From: Paenibacillus mucilaginosus 3016
Lineage (GTDB): Bacteria; Bacillota; Bacilli; Paenibacillales; NBRC-103111
Length of the DNA: 64,000 nucleotides
Reading direction: 5' to 3'
NCBI RefSeq assembly: GCF_000250655.1
Contig: NC_016935.1
Coordinates: forward strand, 5,970,001 to 6,034,000
Shown here: positions 31,872 through 57,229 of the stretch, in pieces
Numbering within the stretch: position 1 is the first letter of the stretch
How the letters are laid out: each line of letters opens with the position of its first letter
The notes under the pieces: model-generated
Databases searched by the model: none
The model's input: the letters and a program-made list of their open reading frames with translations, nothing else
Told to the model about the DNA's origin: nothing
Translations under genes and position numbers: made by a program

Positions 31872-32768
31872 TTACTTCAGACCGCTGGTGGAGATCCCTT
31901 CCACAATGTACTTCTGGAAGACGAAGAACACGATGACGATCGGCAGCAGCGACAGCGTCGCCATGGCGAACATCCCGCCCCAGTTGTTGATCGATTCGGC
32001 ATCAAGGAACAGCTTGAGCGCCAGCGATACCGGGTAGAGCTCCGGACGGTTCAGGTACAGCAGCGGGTTGATGAAGTCGTCCCATCTCCAGTAGAAGGAG
32101 AAGATGGTCGAGGTCACGAGAGCCGGTACGATCAGAGGCACCACGACTTTGAAAAAGATGCCGTACTTGCTGCAGCCGTCCATCTTCGCCGCCTCGTCGA
32201 GCTCCGGCGGAATCGTGCGGATGAACTGCATGATGAGGAAGATGAAGAACGGCGTCGCGAAGAAGTTCGGTACGATCAGCGGCTTGAACGAAGACAGCCA
32301 GCCGAGCTTGGCGAACATGACATACTGCGGGATGACCGTGACGTCATGCGGGAGCATCATCGTCATCATGACGCAGGCGAACCAGAAGTTCTTGAACTTG
32401 AAGTTAATCCGGGCGAACCCGTAGGCCACAAGCGCCGACGAAGCGACCGCGCCGATCGTCGAGAAAATGACGATAATGAACGAGTTTTTGAAAAAGGTGC
32501 CGAACGTCGTGCCGGCAAAGCCTTTCCAGCCGCTGGCATAGTTCGAGAAGTCGAGCGTACTTGGAATCAGGCTGTAGGCGTTCGCAAAGATCTCATCGTT
32601 GGGCTTCAGCGACGAGCTCGCCAGCCACAGGATCGGATAGATCATCGCCAGGGCCAGGCCCCCGACGATCAGATGGTATAGAAACGGCTTCAATCGTTTG
32701 AAGCTCAGGGCTTGGGAGCTGCTCTTGGGTTTTGCCATCGGCTTGGCGCCGTTCATGCTCATGGCCAT
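31872..32768 (-). CDS. yesQ: Carbohydrate ABC transporter permease (YesQ-like)
   Basis: 298-residue permease with six helices. The first helix is [22 protein letters not shown], followed by the MalG-type loop and an EAA loop [22 protein letters not shown]. The ATG begins one base after the yesP stop, so the two are translated together. It forms the membrane channel with YesP. The ATPase is not encoded nearby. Confidence 0.93.
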
Positions 32769-32769
32769 G

Positions 32770-33678
32770 TTATTTGTCCCCTTTCGCTTCGTAGTGGACC
32801 CAGTACTTCGAGGTCTGGAAAATCAGCAGCGTAATCAGGCCGACGATGATCAGCATGACCCACGCCATGGCCGAAGCATAGCCCATCTCGAAGAATTGGA
32901 ACGCCCGGCGGTACAGGTAGAGCGAGTACAGCAGCGTGTTGTCCAGCGGACCGCCCTCGCCGCGGGAGATGATGTAGGCCGGCGTGAACGTCATGAAGGC
33001 GGCGATCGTCTGCATGATCAGGTTGAACAGGATGATCGGCGAGAGCAGCGGAAGCGTGATCTTAAAGAACCGGTGAATCGCGTTTGCTCCGTCCACGCTG
33101 GCCGCTTCATACATGGAAGCCGGAATGTTCTTGAGGCCGGCCAGGAAGATCAGCATCGAAGAGCCGAACTGCCAGACCGACAGGGCGATCAGGGTCCACA
33201 GCGCGCTGTCCGGCGAACCGATCCAGGAGGTATTGCTCTCGATGCCGATGAGGCCGAGCGCCGAGTTGAAGAGGCCCTTGTCACCGAAGATCTGCGTCCA
33301 CATGATCGAGACAGCCACGCTGCCGCCGATGAGCGACGGAAGGTAGTAGGCGGAGCGGTACGCCCCGATCCCCCTGGCGACTGTGTTCAGCATCATCGCC
33401 ACCGCAAGCGCGAAGGCCAGACGCAGCGGCACGGAAGCGAATACATAAGTCATCGTGACCTGAAGCGACTTGATCAGCTTGTCGTCATTGGTGAACATGT
33501 TCTCATAGTTCTGCAGCCCGACCCAGCGGGGCGCTTCCAGCAGGTTGTACTCCGTGAACGAATAGTAGAGCGACGAGACGATGGGGAACATCGTGAAGAT
33601 CAGGAACCCCAGGATGAACGGCGCGGTGAACACATATCCGATCACATTTTCGTTTTCACGTAAAGAAACGGCTTTCAT
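32770..33678 (-). CDS. yesP: Carbohydrate ABC transporter permease (YesP-like)
   Basis: 302-residue permease of the MalF type. The N-terminus [22 protein letters not shown], the NYEDM-like NYENMF loop and the EAA loop [21 protein letters not shown] are all present. The start is the ATG at 33678, with a modest AGGGG site; a longer frame upstream lacks helices. It begins the yesPQR operon. Its binding-protein partner yesO lies 2.9 kb upstream instead of next to it. Confidence 0.92.
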
Positions 33679-33888
33679 GATCTCAACCCCTAGCATAAGG
33701 TGTGGGTGTGCAGCGAACGGATGCTGCCTTACTGCCAAACAACAGAAAATCTTCCTTGCGAGCGCTCATTGTCGTCCTCTGTCGTTTCTGTAAACGCGCA
33801 TCGCCCGGGTGGGGCGATGCCGTTTATCTTATGTCTTTATGATAAAAGAATCGGGACACGTTCAGAAGGCAAAAAACCGCTCTCTTTG

Positions 33889-33973: not shown

Positions 33974-34666
33974 GTGCTGCCCATGCAACCCCATGCCTTC
34001 TACGCCGCGGCCCCCCAGCCGCCCATCGGCGCGCTTGTACGGCACACGGTGCCCGGACGGGTCGAAGTCACCGGCGAAGCCTCCGTATCCGCCGAGCCCG
34101 ACCGGGCTGTAATCGTGCTTGGCGCCGTAACCGAGAACGCCTCGCTTTCCGAGGCACAGGCCGCGAATACGGAAGCGGTCAACCGGATCATCGCCGCCCT
34201 GACGGCCCTCCCCCTGCCGCGGGAGGCGATCGCCACCGCAGATTACCGGATCGAGATGCAATATGTATACGAGGACGGCAAGCAGCGCTTTACCGGCTAC
34301 CGTGTCACTCACCTGCTCCAGATCACGCTGGACGAACCGTCACGCGCCGGTACGGTCGTCGATACTGCCGTGGCCAGCGGGGCCAACACCGTCACGAGCG
34401 TTTCGTTCCGGCTCGCACGGCCGCAGCCGTATTACCACGCCGCCCTGTCCGCCGCCGTGCAGGAGGCGCAGCGTAAAGCGGGCACGGTGGCCCGTACGCT
34501 CGGCGTGAGGCTCAGCCCGCAGCCGCAGCTCGTAGAGGAGCTGAGCCTCGTGCCCGAGCCGATCCCTTACCAGACGGCGATGCTGGCGGACAGCAAGGTG
34601 ACGCCGCTGCAGCCCGGCACCCTGCAGGTGACGGCGTCGGTGAAGGTGGTATATGCTTATTCGTGA
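33974..34666 (+). CDS. SIMPL domain-containing protein (DUF541)
   Basis: 230 residues from a GTG, or 227 from the ATG at 33983; neither has a strong ribosome binding site. The SIMPL fold is clear: GRVEVTGEASVSAEPDRAVIVLGAVTE, then TADYRIEMQYVYEDGKQRFTGYRV and VQEAQRKAGTVARTLGV. There is no signal peptide or membrane helix, unlike most secreted relatives, so it may be cytosolic. The function of the family is poorly known. It lies on the plus strand inside an otherwise minus-strand sugar operon and is followed by a small membrane-protein gene. Confidence 0.88.
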   Translation: MLPMQPHAFYAAAPQPPIGALVRHTVPGRVEVTGEASVSAEPDRAVIVLGAVTENASLSEAQAANTEAVNRIIAALTALPLPREAIATADYRIEMQYVYEDGKQRFTGYRVTHLLQITLDEPSRAGTVVDTAVASGANTVTSVSFRLARPQPYYHAALSAAVQEAQRKAGTVARTLGVRLSPQPQLVEELSLVPEPIPYQTAMLADSKVTPLQPGTLQVTASVKVVYAYS

Positions 34667-34691
34667 GTAGACTTCGAGAGGAGGGCTGACC

Positions 34692-34931
34692 CTGCTTTAT
34701 TCATCGCATCCGGAGGACAAAGATTTCTCCGCTCGCTTCGACAAGCCGCGGGGACCCATGAGCGGGGGCATGTGCCTCTTTCATTTCTTTACGGTGGTCT
34801 TCCTTCTCCTCGTTACCCTTGGCTTCGGCGCCTTTTTTGTCTCTTACGCCGGCTTCTTCGGGGTGCTGCTCACATGGATTCCGGCCTCGGTGCTGGTCGC
34901 CTTCGTCGTCTCCTGGATTCGTAACTATTAA
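34692..34931 (+). CDS. Small membrane protein, possible CTG start
   Basis: Two predicted membrane helices (FHFFTVVFLLLVTLGFGAFF and GVLLTWIPASVLVAFVVSW) separated by a short loop. The only ATG codons (34758 and 34770) lack a good ribosome binding site. In frame upstream, GGAGGG sits seven bases before a CTG at 34692, giving 79 residues with a hydrophilic N-terminus (SSHPEDKDFSARFDKPRG). The minimum form from 34758 is 57 residues. The gene follows the SIMPL gene by 25 bases and may be coupled to it. No family recognised. Confidence 0.55.
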   Translation: MLYSSHPEDKDFSARFDKPRGPMSGGMCLFHFFTVVFLLLVTLGFGAFFVSYAGFFGVLLTWIPASVLVAFVVSWIRNY

Positions 34932-35337
34932 ATCGCCGCGGGTTGTGTATTCAGTTCAGGCGGATGTTCCGGGTCCAAAGCTTCTGTCGACGCTTCACCG
35001 CCAAAGGCTGCCGGCAGCAGGGTGATGCTCAAAGGCAGCGCTATTCAACGCTTTGCGGCTGCCCGCTTCGGCTGCAGATCCCTGTGCAGCGTTCTGGGAT
35101 CTGCATCTATTGACAGGCTCCGCAGCGATTATCGGCGGTTCGTCTATGCCGGCAGCCGCTTCGACGTTTCGGAGCGGCTGGCCAGGGCACTCGGACATCG
35201 CCGGAGCGCTTTTGGGCGGTTTGCCTGCCGGAGATCGATTGGTCAGCGTAACGCATTACCCGCGGCCGATATGCTCTGGAGAACTCTAACCCTGGTCCAG
35301 AGATCGAGATCCCGCGGTTTTACAGGCCCGCAGAGAG

Positions 35338-35524
35338 ATAACGGAACTCAGGTTCGCTATTTTTACAAAAGCTGCCGCTCCCGGAGCCATAGCGGAACTA
35401 GGATGCGCTATTTCGTTGATTTGACGGCAGAAGCCGGGGCATCCAGGACAATAAGGCATCTGAGTCCCGCTATCCTCCGGGAAATGACGGGAAATACCCG
35501 AATAAAGCATCTGAGTTCCGTTAT
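35338..35524. repeat. Four 24-bp repeats in two inverted pairs with 51-bp spacing
   Basis: Copies A (35338-35361) and B (35389-35412) are in direct orientation. Copies C (35450-35473) and D (35501-35524) are the reverse complement. The core is CGGAACTCAGATGC, flanked by AT-rich ends that are themselves partly palindromic (ATAGCG/CGCTAT). The distance between starts is 51 bp for both A-B and C-D. The 27-bp spacers share only a short CCCGGAG element in matching orientation, so the element and its period are conserved together. Confidence 0.9.
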
Positions 35525-35556
35525 TTGCTGCCGCGTCCACGTTCCTCGATCACCTT

Positions 35557-36330
35557 GTCGCACCTCACCGCCCGGCACCACCGTTTTCTCACTTTGTCAG
35601 CTCGTCCGACAACTTCTTCGCCTAGCGGACCAGCATCCCACGACTCCCTCCTCGCACCTCACAGTCCGGCTTCACCACGACTTCCCTCCTCTCGTCTTGC
35701 CGACAAGCATCCCACAACTGTCCCTCCTCGCGCCTCACAATCCGGCTTCACCGCGACTTCCCTCCTCTCGTCTTGCCGGCAAGCATCCCATAACTGTCCC
35801 TCCTCGCACCTCACAGTCCGACATCCCACGAGTTCCCTCCTGGCGCCTCACAATCCGGCTTCACCACGACTTCCCTCCTGGCGCCTCACTATCCGACTTC
35901 ACCTCGACTTCCCTCCTGGCGCTTCACAATCCGGCTTCACCTCGACTTCCCCCCTCTCGTCTCACTGTACGGCATCCCACGAGTTCCTCGCGCCTCGCAG
36001 CCCGGCACCCTAGAATTTCCATCCTCTCGCCTGGCAGACCGGCATCTCATGACTTACCTCCTCTCGCCTCAATGGCCGGCTTTTCCCGCGACTTCCCTCC
36101 TTCAGTCACAGTCCGGCGGTCCAATATTTCTACTCTCGCCTGACAACCCGGCTTCACCGCGATTTCCCTCCTCTCGTCTCACCGACAAGCATCCCACAAC
36201 TCTCCCTCCTCGTACCTCACAGTCCGACATCCCACGAGTTCCCCCCTCACGCCTCACTATCCGGCTCCACCACGACTTCCCTCCTTGCGCCTCACTATCC
36301 GGCTTCACCACGACTTCCCCTCCTCCACAT
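35557..36330. repeat. Degenerate 38-bp tandem repeat array, about 20 copies
   Basis: A unit of about 38 bp repeats head-to-tail, mostly 36-39 bp per copy. Conserved pieces in order are CGCCTCACAATCCGG, CTTCACCACGACTTCC and CTCCT. A variant half (CGTCTTGCCGACAAGCATCC) recurs at least three times. The plus strand is strongly C/T-rich. The period is not a multiple of three, so the frame rotates and the array is unlikely to encode protein. It ends about 210 bp before the yesO terminator. Confidence 0.92.
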
Positions 36331-36537
36331 CCCTTTAACTCCCGTGTCCTCACTCTTTTCTCTACCATTTTCTCTCCATCACCCACACCGCCAGCACTGC
36401 TCATCCACATCCCTCCAACACTCACACTGCACCCACTCAGCAGTCCTCAACCCCATCCTGATTGCCGCCCCCCGGCCTCTTGGCCTTTCCTCCAGCCCCT
36501 ACTTACTGCACACGCCCCCATCACCGCCGCCAAGTGC

Positions 36538-36572
36538 AAAAAAGACCCCGCGCTGTCATCAGCGCAGGGCCC
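36538..36572 (-). terminator. Rho-independent terminator after yesO
   Basis: CCCTGCGCTG pairs with CAGCGCGGGG (one mismatch) around a four-base loop and is followed by TTTTTT on the minus strand, just past the yesO stop. It isolates yesO from the downstream yesPQR genes. Confidence 0.88.
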
Positions 36573-36582
36573 TTGCTTAACC

Positions 36583-37908
36583 TTACTTCTTGTTCTTCGC
36601 CAGGATCGCGTTGGCATCCTTGCGGAATTTCGCGGCCGCGTCTTCCGGCGTGATTTTCTTGTACATCATCTGCTCATTGAGATCCTTAAGCAGCTTCTCG
36701 ATCTCGATGGAGCCGATCGGGTTCGGAGGATCCATCGGCGAGGAGTTCTGCTCAGCCCACGCCACGTAGTCGAAGACTTTGACTTCTTCCGGCTTCAGCA
36801 GCGGCTTCAGCGCTTCCTTCACCTTGGAGGAGACCGGTACGCCGCGCTCGCCCTTGATGATCTTGTTCGCTTCGATGTCGTTGATGAAGAAGTCGATGAA
36901 CTTCGCCGCTTCTTCCTTGTGCTTGGAGCTCTTCGTTACGGAAAGGTACATACTCGGCTTCAGGAACATGCCCTTGTTGGCGTTCGGGCCGACCATCGGC
37001 TGCAGCTCCAGCGGACGCTTCGCCGCATTGACGAGACCGATGTACTGGTTCGACCAGCCGTTGGAAGTGATCGAGTTGCCGAGCGTCACTTCATCGTCCT
37101 CCGGCGTGCCTTTCTTCTGTGCTTCCTTATCGAGCGTCAGGTAGTAGCCGGCTTCATACCACTTCTGCTGGCGCTTGAAGTAGTCGACGAAGTGCTTGTC
37201 GTCCGTGTAGCCGAGCGTCGAGCCGTCGGCGCTGTACATCTTCTGGTCGACGGTTCTCAGATAGTAAGCGAAGAACACGTCCGGGCGGTAGCCGCCCATG
37301 ATCTTGCCGGCCGCTTTGGCCTTGACGGCGATCTGCTCGAGATCATCCCAGGTCCAATCCTTCTTCGGAGGCTCGACGCCGATCTTCTTCAGCATCTCAA
37401 AATCCATCAGGTGAGCCAGCGCGTTCACGCCCGTCGTCATCGCGTACAGCTTGCCGTCCAGCTGGCCGGCGGAGATGATGTTCGGGGAGATCGAGCTGAC
37501 GTCGAGCGTCCCGTTCTTCGTATATGGCGTCAGGTCCTCCAGCTGGCCGCGGCCGCCGTATTGGGTCAGGTAGGAGATGTCCATCTGAAGAATGTCCGGC
37601 AGTCCGTTCGCCGCCGCCTGCGGGGCCAGCTTCTTCCAGTAGTCGTCGAAGGAAGCGTACTCCGCTTCGATCTTCACATGCGGGTTCTTCTGCTGATAGA
37701 GCTCGATGACCTTCAGCGTGTAATCGTGGCGGGCCTGTCCGCCCCACCAGGCCATCCTCAGCTTGATAGGCTCCTTCGTCCCGGAAGCGTTTTCGGTTTT
37801 GGCTGCGGTACCGCCGTCCGCCGCATTCCCGCCGGCCGGTGTATTGCTTCCGCCGCAGCCAGTCAGTACAAGTGCAAGAGAGAGCAGTGCTGTGATCGGT
37901 TTTTTCAT
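36583..37908 (-). CDS. yesO: Carbohydrate ABC transporter substrate-binding lipoprotein (YesO-like)
   Basis: 441-residue binding protein of SBP family 1. The signal peptide ends in a lipobox (LALVLTGCGG). Typical blocks are LRMAWWGGQARHDYTLKVIE, FDDYWKKLAPQAAANGLPDI and KTGA-less C-terminal ENKIIKGERGVPVS-type segment (NKIIKGERGVPVSSKVKEAL). It should deliver rhamnogalacturonan oligosaccharides to YesPQ. A strong terminator follows it, so it is transcribed apart from yesPQ. A cre-like element lies 34 bases upstream of the start. Confidence 0.92.
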   Translation of the reverse strand: MKKPITALLSLALVLTGCGGSNTPAGGNAADGGTAAKTENASGTKEPIKLRMAWWGGQARHDYTLKVIELYQQKNPHVKIEAEYASFDDYWKKLAPQAAANGLPDILQMDISYLTQYGGRGQLEDLTPYTKNGTLDVSSISPNIISAGQLDGKLYAMTTGVNALAHLMDFEMLKKIGVEPPKKDWTWDDLEQIAVKAKAAGKIMGGYRPDVFFAYYLRTVDQKMYSADGSTLGYTDDKHFVDYFKRQQKWYEAGYYLTLDKEAQKKGTPEDDEVTLGNSITSNGWSNQYIGLVNAAKRPLELQPMVGPNANKGMFLKPSMYLSVTKSSKHKEEAAKFIDFFINDIEANKIIKGERGVPVSSKVKEALKPLLKPEEVKVFDYVAWAEQNSSPMDPPNPIGSIEIEKLLKDLNEQMMYKKITPEDAAAKFRKDANAILAKNKK

Positions 37909-56072: not shown

Positions 56073-56165
56073 AAATTACATATCCACAAATCAGCTCTTA
56101 TCAAAATTACATATCCACAAATCAGCTCTTATCAAAATTACATATCCACAAATCAACTCCTATCA
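56073..56165. repeat. 31-bp tandem repeat across the stop codon of the ArAE-type gene
   Basis: Three copies of a 31-bp unit at 56073-56103, 56104-56134 and 56135-56165. Copies 1 and 2 are identical; copy 3, which contains the stop codon of the exporter gene at 56153-56155, differs by two substitutions. On the gene's sense strand each unit begins TGATA and carries ATTTGTGGATATGTAAT. The two extra copies lie in the 3' untranslated region. Confidence 0.95.
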
Positions 56166-57229
56166 AAATTTCTGCGCAGACGCTCGAGCGAGAAGTCCAG
56201 CGGGTCCTTCAGGTCCGCTCCGCCCTTGAACTGCTCCACAAGGCGGTTCAGCCGGCCGGTCTGGTACCCGTAGTCGTACATCACGGCCGCCACGACGGAC
56301 AGCCGGACCGAGCCCTCAAGGCCCTGGCTGCAGCGGTGCACCACCCAGTCCATGAACCGGGTGTTCTCTTCCTCGAAGTTCTCGGCTTCCTGGCTGTCCG
56401 GCTTCAGCTTGTCGTCGAACTTCAGCATGACATGCTCATGGTACTTGATCAGCCGCTCCAGGTGGTGGTCGAACATCTCGTCGGCCTCCGGCGAACGGCC
56501 GGCCCCGAAGTAGTGCTCGTCGATGACATCCAGCACCTCGGCGCCCTTCTCCATCGTGTGAAGCATCTGCTTATACACGACAAGATGACGCGAGCGGCTG
56601 TATTTGGCCCGCTTGAGCTTCTTCTGCTCTTCCTCGAAGAGCGAATATTTGCCTGCGAGCAACTTCAATGCGCCGCCCAGCGCGGCCTTTTCCTCCCGGA
56701 AGACGGACTCCTTGATCTCGTCGGAGATCACGGTCCGCAGGAGCAGCGACATCTTCTGGAATACGGAGTGGATCTGCGAGACGAACTGCTCCTTCGGCTT
56801 CGGCGGAATGAAGAAGATGTTGACGAGGAACGCCGCGCCGATCCCGACCAGAGAAAGCAGGAACCGGTTGAGGGCAAAATCCCACTGCCCCGACGCCTCC
56901 ATCACCGCTACGACCGTGACGAGCGTGATGCCTATCGTTTCTTCCATTTTCATTTGAAGACAGATAAGAATGACAAGGATGCAGACAATCCCGATCGCAA
57001 GCGGCTCGTTCGAGAAAAAGCGTCCGGCCGCCAGCGCCAGCGCCGCTCCGAGCACGTTGGTCTGCAGCTGGTCCAGAAAATAGCGCCACGACCGGTAGAT
57101 CGACGGCTGCATGGCGAAGATCGCCGCGACCGCCGCAATGACCGGCGAGGCCGATCCCAGCAGCAAGGCCACATACAGGGACAGGGTGACCGCGATCCCC
57201 GTCTTGAGCACACGGGCTCCCAAAGCCAC
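56153..57229 (-). CDS. Aromatic acid exporter (ArAE_1/DUF939) family protein
   Basis: 358 residues from a GTG with AAGGAG eight bases upstream; a GTG nine bases earlier is too close to the ribosome binding site. Five to six helices occupy the first 140 residues (LKTGIAVTLSLYVALLLG, then MQPSIYRSWRYFLDQLQTNV, and IGIGAAFLVNIFFIP). The rest is a helical cytoplasmic domain (YSRSRHLVVYKQMLHTMEKG). The family contains B. subtilis YgaE/YqjA-type proteins and is thought to export aromatic or organic acids. The 3' end is repeated downstream. Confidence 0.9.
   Translation of the reverse strand: MALGARVLKTGIAVTLSLYVALLLGSASPVIAAVAAIFAMQPSIYRSWRYFLDQLQTNVLGAALALAAGRFFSNEPLAIGIVCILVILICLQMKMEETIGITLVTVVAVMEASGQWDFALNRFLLSLVGIGAAFLVNIFFIPPKPKEQFVSQIHSVFQKMSLLLRTVISDEIKESVFREEKAALGGALKLLAGKYSLFEEEQKKLKRAKYSRSRHLVVYKQMLHTMEKGAEVLDVIDEHYFGAGRSPEADEMFDHHLERLIKYHEHVMLKFDDKLKPDSQEAENFEEENTRFMDWVVHRCSQGLEGSVRLSVVAAVMYDYGYQTGRLNRLVEQFKGGADLKDPLDFSLERLRRNFDRS

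Follow-up and report, generated by a model that had tools for sequence, protein, structure and literature searches.

A gap between convergent genes in the Paenibacillus mucilaginosus 3016 genome holds a tandem repeat rich in C on one strand, which raises the question of what this repeat is, how it arose and whether it has a role there. It was analyzed in a window of 64,000 nucleotides (the whole stretch of DNA studied), and the features of the locus are given in Table 1. An earlier note, made from the letters of this DNA, placed the repeat between parts of a transport operon, which agrees with the Pfam assignment of the solute-binding protein (SBP) gene and the two permease genes to the minus strand. 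The SIMPL (DUF541) gene and the 57-aa membrane-like ORF lie on the opposite strand within this ABC transport operon. These two genes are kept in P. caseinilyticus, the nearest relative (its SBP is 95% identical), and missing from the other related loci tested. An analogous hairpin is also found in P. caseinilyticus at the place aligned with the likely SBP-gene terminator.

Table 1. Features of the array locus, in window coordinates
Feature	Position	Strand	Basis
Two ABC permease genes, same operon as SBP	31872..33738 (31872-32768, 32770-33738)	-	Pfam BPD_transp_1
SIMPL (DUF541) gene with small hydrophobic ORF of 57 aa, both convergent with SBP gene	33974..34931	+	Pfam PF04402
Intergenic island, 1,608 bp, including last base of small-ORF stop codon	34931..36538		blastn and synteny vs P. 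caseinilyticus, where 37 bp
187-bp quartet element of 23-bp imperfect palindromes at 35338(+), 35389(+), 35451(-), 35502(-)	35338..35524		Genome-wide alignment of 24 full copies, fixed offsets
Tandem array of degenerate 38-bp units (consensus TTCCCTCCTCGCGCCTCACAGTCCGGCWTCACCACGAC), units clear over 35618-36325	35558..36330	+	TRF, wraparound segmentation, autocorrelation, unit profile search
Units 3-6, source or partner of block duplication with 36164-36314	35758..35908	+	Unit identity matrix, distance 11: 0.89, 0.95, 0.87, 0.92
Units 9-13, most diverged (oldest)	35984..36163	+	Identity of just 0.68-0.79 to best-matching unit
Units 14-17, other copy of 4-unit block	36164..36314	+	Unit identity matrix
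Non-repetitive C-rich, G-poor (G 11%) tail of island	36331..36538	+	Composition, sequence
Hairpin and T-run, likely SBP-gene terminator	36541..36575	-	Read by eye; not listed by pattern scan
ABC-transporter solute-binding protein (SBP)	36583..37908	-	Pfam SBP_bac_8

Structure and growth of the array

The earlier note had described about 770 bp of a degenerate 38-bp tandem repeat, and the analysis confirmed it. TRF reported a period of 38 with 18.4 copies and 68% matches at 35638-36325, together with a superperiod of 189 bp (5-unit) at 35634-35979. Wraparound segmentation resolved 18 full units over 35645-36314 with a partial unit at either end, the unit lengths ranging from 33 to 39 bp and being mostly 37, 38 and 39. 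The lag-38 autocorrelation of the array was 0.525, while 300 dinucleotide shuffles reached no more than 0.379 at any lag from 20 to 59. The array start given by the note is backed by a weaker match to the unit profile at 35558-35582. Where the note had seen at least two unit subtypes, three were distinguished, namely a 38-bp form ending in CTTCACCACGAC, a 37-bp form ending in CATCCCACGAS and a 39-bp form with TGTCCC at the start. The strand bias was borne out as well: C makes up 46% and G 15% of the plus strand, and the GC skew falls to -0.63, the most extreme value of any 400-bp window within the 64 kb and within the surrounding 464 kb.

In agreement with the note's statement that unique spacers are absent, the units are contiguous and degenerate, and no CRISPR-like spacers were found in the segmentation; a CRISPR array is thus ruled out. 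By structure, the array is an intergenic minisatellite, with head-to-tail non-coding units of the class of approximately 10-100 bp. Like other bacterial intergenic minisatellite or VNTR loci, it consists of degenerate head-to-tail units of tens of bp between genes and carries block duplications; unlike them, the arrays in this genome occur recurrently beside a specific dispersed palindromic element, and this one is strongly strand-biased.

Comparison of the units revealed nested duplications. The block of units 3-6 returns in the same order as units 14-17, approximately 406 bp away and with 87-95% identity, while the neighboring units 5-7 are 92-95% identical. Adjacent units, the 5-unit superperiod and the 4-unit block together are the signature of repeated local duplication over an older decayed core. 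Among the guesses of the earlier note, a decayed satellite is therefore the best one, since older diverged units lie in the middle of the array and younger blocks with 92-95% identity on either side. The seed might have been a short C-rich sequence, which would have been enlarged by ordinary slippage or unequal recombination.

The non-coding nature of the array, also proposed earlier, is supported by the hexamer scores. In a home-made hexamer model trained on the same genome, which also supplied the gene calls, ORFs across the array scored -0.27 to -0.50 per codon, compared with +0.55 for typical genes. Long chance ORFs (373 aa) do span the array, as would be expected if it were the leftover of a repetitive protein gene; however, with such strongly negative scores, a period of 38 that is not divisible by 3 and unit lengths of 33-39 bp, such an origin is extremely improbable. 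A structured RNA is ruled out too, because Rfam models searched against 34700-36700 gave nothing at E<=1 and folding beyond that of dinucleotide shuffles was found for neither RNA strand. The other suggestion, a structural, silencing or recombination element, found no support, as the RNA folds no better than shuffles and the array is missing from the sister species and from 104 family genomes.

The intergenic island and the quartet element

A search for the unit in this and other genomes had been proposed in the earlier note. Blast, pattern and profile searches confined the unit to this locus in the 8.74-Mb genome; the profile, run over 25 genomes of the genus, matched this locus only, with nothing convincing among the 24 congeners. 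The DNA search of 104 family genomes did not find the array, and the matches of the island there were to the palindromic element only. The island had no match in plasmid and phage sequences, and no description was found in the literature on intergenic repeats in Paenibacillus.

The homology with P. caseinilyticus ends at 34930, where the 57-aa ORF has its stop codon, and restarts at 36539 by the SBP terminator, and the array is missing at the syntenic place in this sister. The same kind of difference was seen at other loci: each of the five syntenic gaps that bear the element exceeds its counterpart in the sister, by 711-1571 bp, while the median difference of other gaps is 50 bp. The palindrome has 2 copies in P. 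caseinilyticus and 355 here (one genome per species in all comparisons). The SIMPL and 57-aa genes are lacking at this place in outgroups, so that the outgroups give no polarity; gain of the island in this lineage is nevertheless likelier than loss in the sister.

The edges of the island, directly 3' of the small-ORF stop codon and just short of the likely terminator, would suit the arrival of all 1.6 kb in one piece, by mobility or horizontal acquisition, with the array already aboard. Such an arrival is quite improbable, given that no second copy of the island (apart from the element) was found in the genome, the family, plasmids or phages, that no target duplication is visible by eye, and that the lengths and contents of islands vary at every site.

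The earlier note had correctly reported repeats adjoining the array, which it took to be of 24 bp, but it missed their rigid four-palindrome make-up. They belong to a genome-wide family and are 23-mers with a consensus of the ATARCGGAACTCAGATGCGCTAT type, arranged at offsets 0/51/113/164 in the orientation ++--, and the four sites are strongly conserved while the spacers are not. Approximately 355 of these 23-bp palindromes are dispersed over the genome, and a distant subclade within the genus has the same quartet geometry. As single-stranded DNA, the copy in the window forms a long hairpin (fold z -5.8). The quartet has the look of an independent element, either protein-binding or mobile.

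The element shares the hallmark of REP/BIME sequences (GTAG- and CGTC-tagged families, PMC3733652), namely short intergenic palindromes that cluster in inverted orientation. It differs from them in its rigid quartet, in a 23-mer consensus that by inspection is not GTAG/CGTC-tagged, and in the lack of a Y1 (RAYT) transposase: PF01797 has no member in this genome and was found in five control genomes, so a RAYT-type REP system was rejected. The element resembles bacterial MITEs, of which bcr1 in Bacillus cereus is an example (cited in PMC3733652), in being dispersed, non-coding, of comparable size, near-palindromic overall and abundant in a restricted lineage; it differs in that four internal 23-mers are conserved while the spacers vary, and that no transposase or target-site duplication was identified. 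The inverted quartet is present, and no duplication was visible in an empty-site comparison in which the flanks have diverged. At genome position 1962607-1962881, half of the element is itself in tandem amplification, with six 23-mers at exact 51-bp steps.

Association of the element with tandem arrays

The accompaniment of palindrome elements by arrays is a recurrent pattern that the earlier note missed. In 2.06 Mb of the genome (4970001-7034000), the element is present in 29 of 1418 gaps. Non-coding tandem arrays of at least 150 bp occur in 12 of these 29 gaps, compared with 3 of 127 other gaps of at least 500 bp (P-value = 6e-8, Fisher test) and 3 of 492 element-free gaps of comparable residual length, i.e. 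with array and element length subtracted (P-value = 3e-14). The array excess was also significant in a permutation with residual length and orientation as strata (P-value = 5e-5). Among gaps between convergent genes, 9 of 16 with the element carry an array and none of 76 without it (P-value = 1e-8).

The arrays in the element gaps have periods of 13, 26, 36, 38, 54, 55, 72, 72, 86, 88, 116 and 173 bp, and 30 further element loci, mostly at 0.8-3.2 Mb, yielded more arrays, with periods of 180, 106, 169, 36, 323, 46 and 89. Most units have no relation to those of other sites, and two groups of islands are partly related; because these groups have some sequence in common, not every array is strictly private. 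One array of nine 72-bp units (genome 5817989-5818653) directly follows another quartet element, and a related unit is found inverted across that element and in an island at 6352999.

These results suggest that the 38-bp array is probably a partly decayed minisatellite, private to this locus, that lies in a lineage-specific island near an element tied to array birth, grew by slippage or unequal recombination and has no conserved role. The association of the element with array birth is strong, and we infer that it is causal and that the array lacks a conserved role. The long hairpin or cruciform potential of the element may raise the rate of nearby duplication, for example through stalled or broken replication forks; alternatively, the element may mark gaps where duplications get kept. 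A bolder version, in which the quartet acts as a nursery of tandem DNA that provokes de novo, site-specific amplification between convergent genes and has given rise to dozens of satellites of independent origin, with the 38-bp array among the older, decaying ones, is possible but doubtful.

Against a causal role, elements and arrays may both pile up in junk-tolerant gaps. That they gather independently in weakly selected gaps by passive coincidence is conceivable, if on the unlikely side. Gaps between convergent genes tolerate insertions, the arrays occur both left and right of the element at distances of 17-480 bp, and the related elements of the other subclade (G004, G009 and G024) come with few long arrays, which means that the element alone is not sufficient. 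However, a large excess survives the strata of residual length and orientation, and none of the 76 element-free convergent gaps has such an array.

How tandem arrays arise in bacteria is usually observed locus by locus, whereas here many unrelated arrays in one genome accompany the same small palindromic element, and the sister species, nearly devoid of it, provides a natural control.

Strand bias and Rho-dependent termination

The GC skew shifts at the element, whose right side is C-rich on the plus strand. Over the 29 element gaps, the mean skew is -0.01 on the left and -0.21 on the right, while the halves of control gaps have -0.07 and -0.09 (difference P-value = 1e-6). The present locus is an extreme case of this trend. 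The skews of the arrays themselves range from -0.68 to +0.32 across sites, and C-richness as a common property of the arrays was rejected because the sign varies.

The composition could reflect a selected zone of Rho-dependent termination. Rightward RNA from the SIMPL and small-ORF genes, C-rich, G-poor and unstructured over approximately 1 kb, would load Rho and keep the convergent SBP gene free of antisense transcription, the zone standing in for a hairpin terminator that the island has displaced by 1.6 kb. Rut-like motifs number approximately 150 per kb on the plus strand and 0 on the minus strand, whereas other gaps average 13 and 4 per kb, although the scan applied the published rule (PMC6407284) in simplified form. 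Of 20 shuffles, 19 fold more than the plus-strand RNA, the genome has a Rho gene, and the flanks of the element are skewed systematically. In B. subtilis, Rut sites are likewise pyrimidine-rich, G-poor and unstructured, and Rho exerts wide control of antisense transcription, but sequence features are poor predictors of Rut sites (PMC12350095). Since C-richness is no general trait of the arrays at other elements and the sister lacks this array, selection for termination is rather unlikely.

Under the simplified rule, the array shares with Rut sites an excess of C over G, a lack of structure and regularly spaced YC on one strand; it differs from them in being approximately 1 kb of tandem repeat. 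Because the plus-strand RNA would be strongly Rho-site-like, incidental termination of rightward transcription is plausible, with the C-rich, G-poor strand loading Rho if rightward transcripts enter the array. With this set of loci, one could test directly whether tandem duplication is driven by a hairpin-forming element and whether C-rich arrays also serve as Rho barriers between convergent genes.

Elsewhere in the window, a near-perfect (97%) tandem repeat of 3.2 copies with an A/T-rich 31-bp unit is found at 56073-56170.
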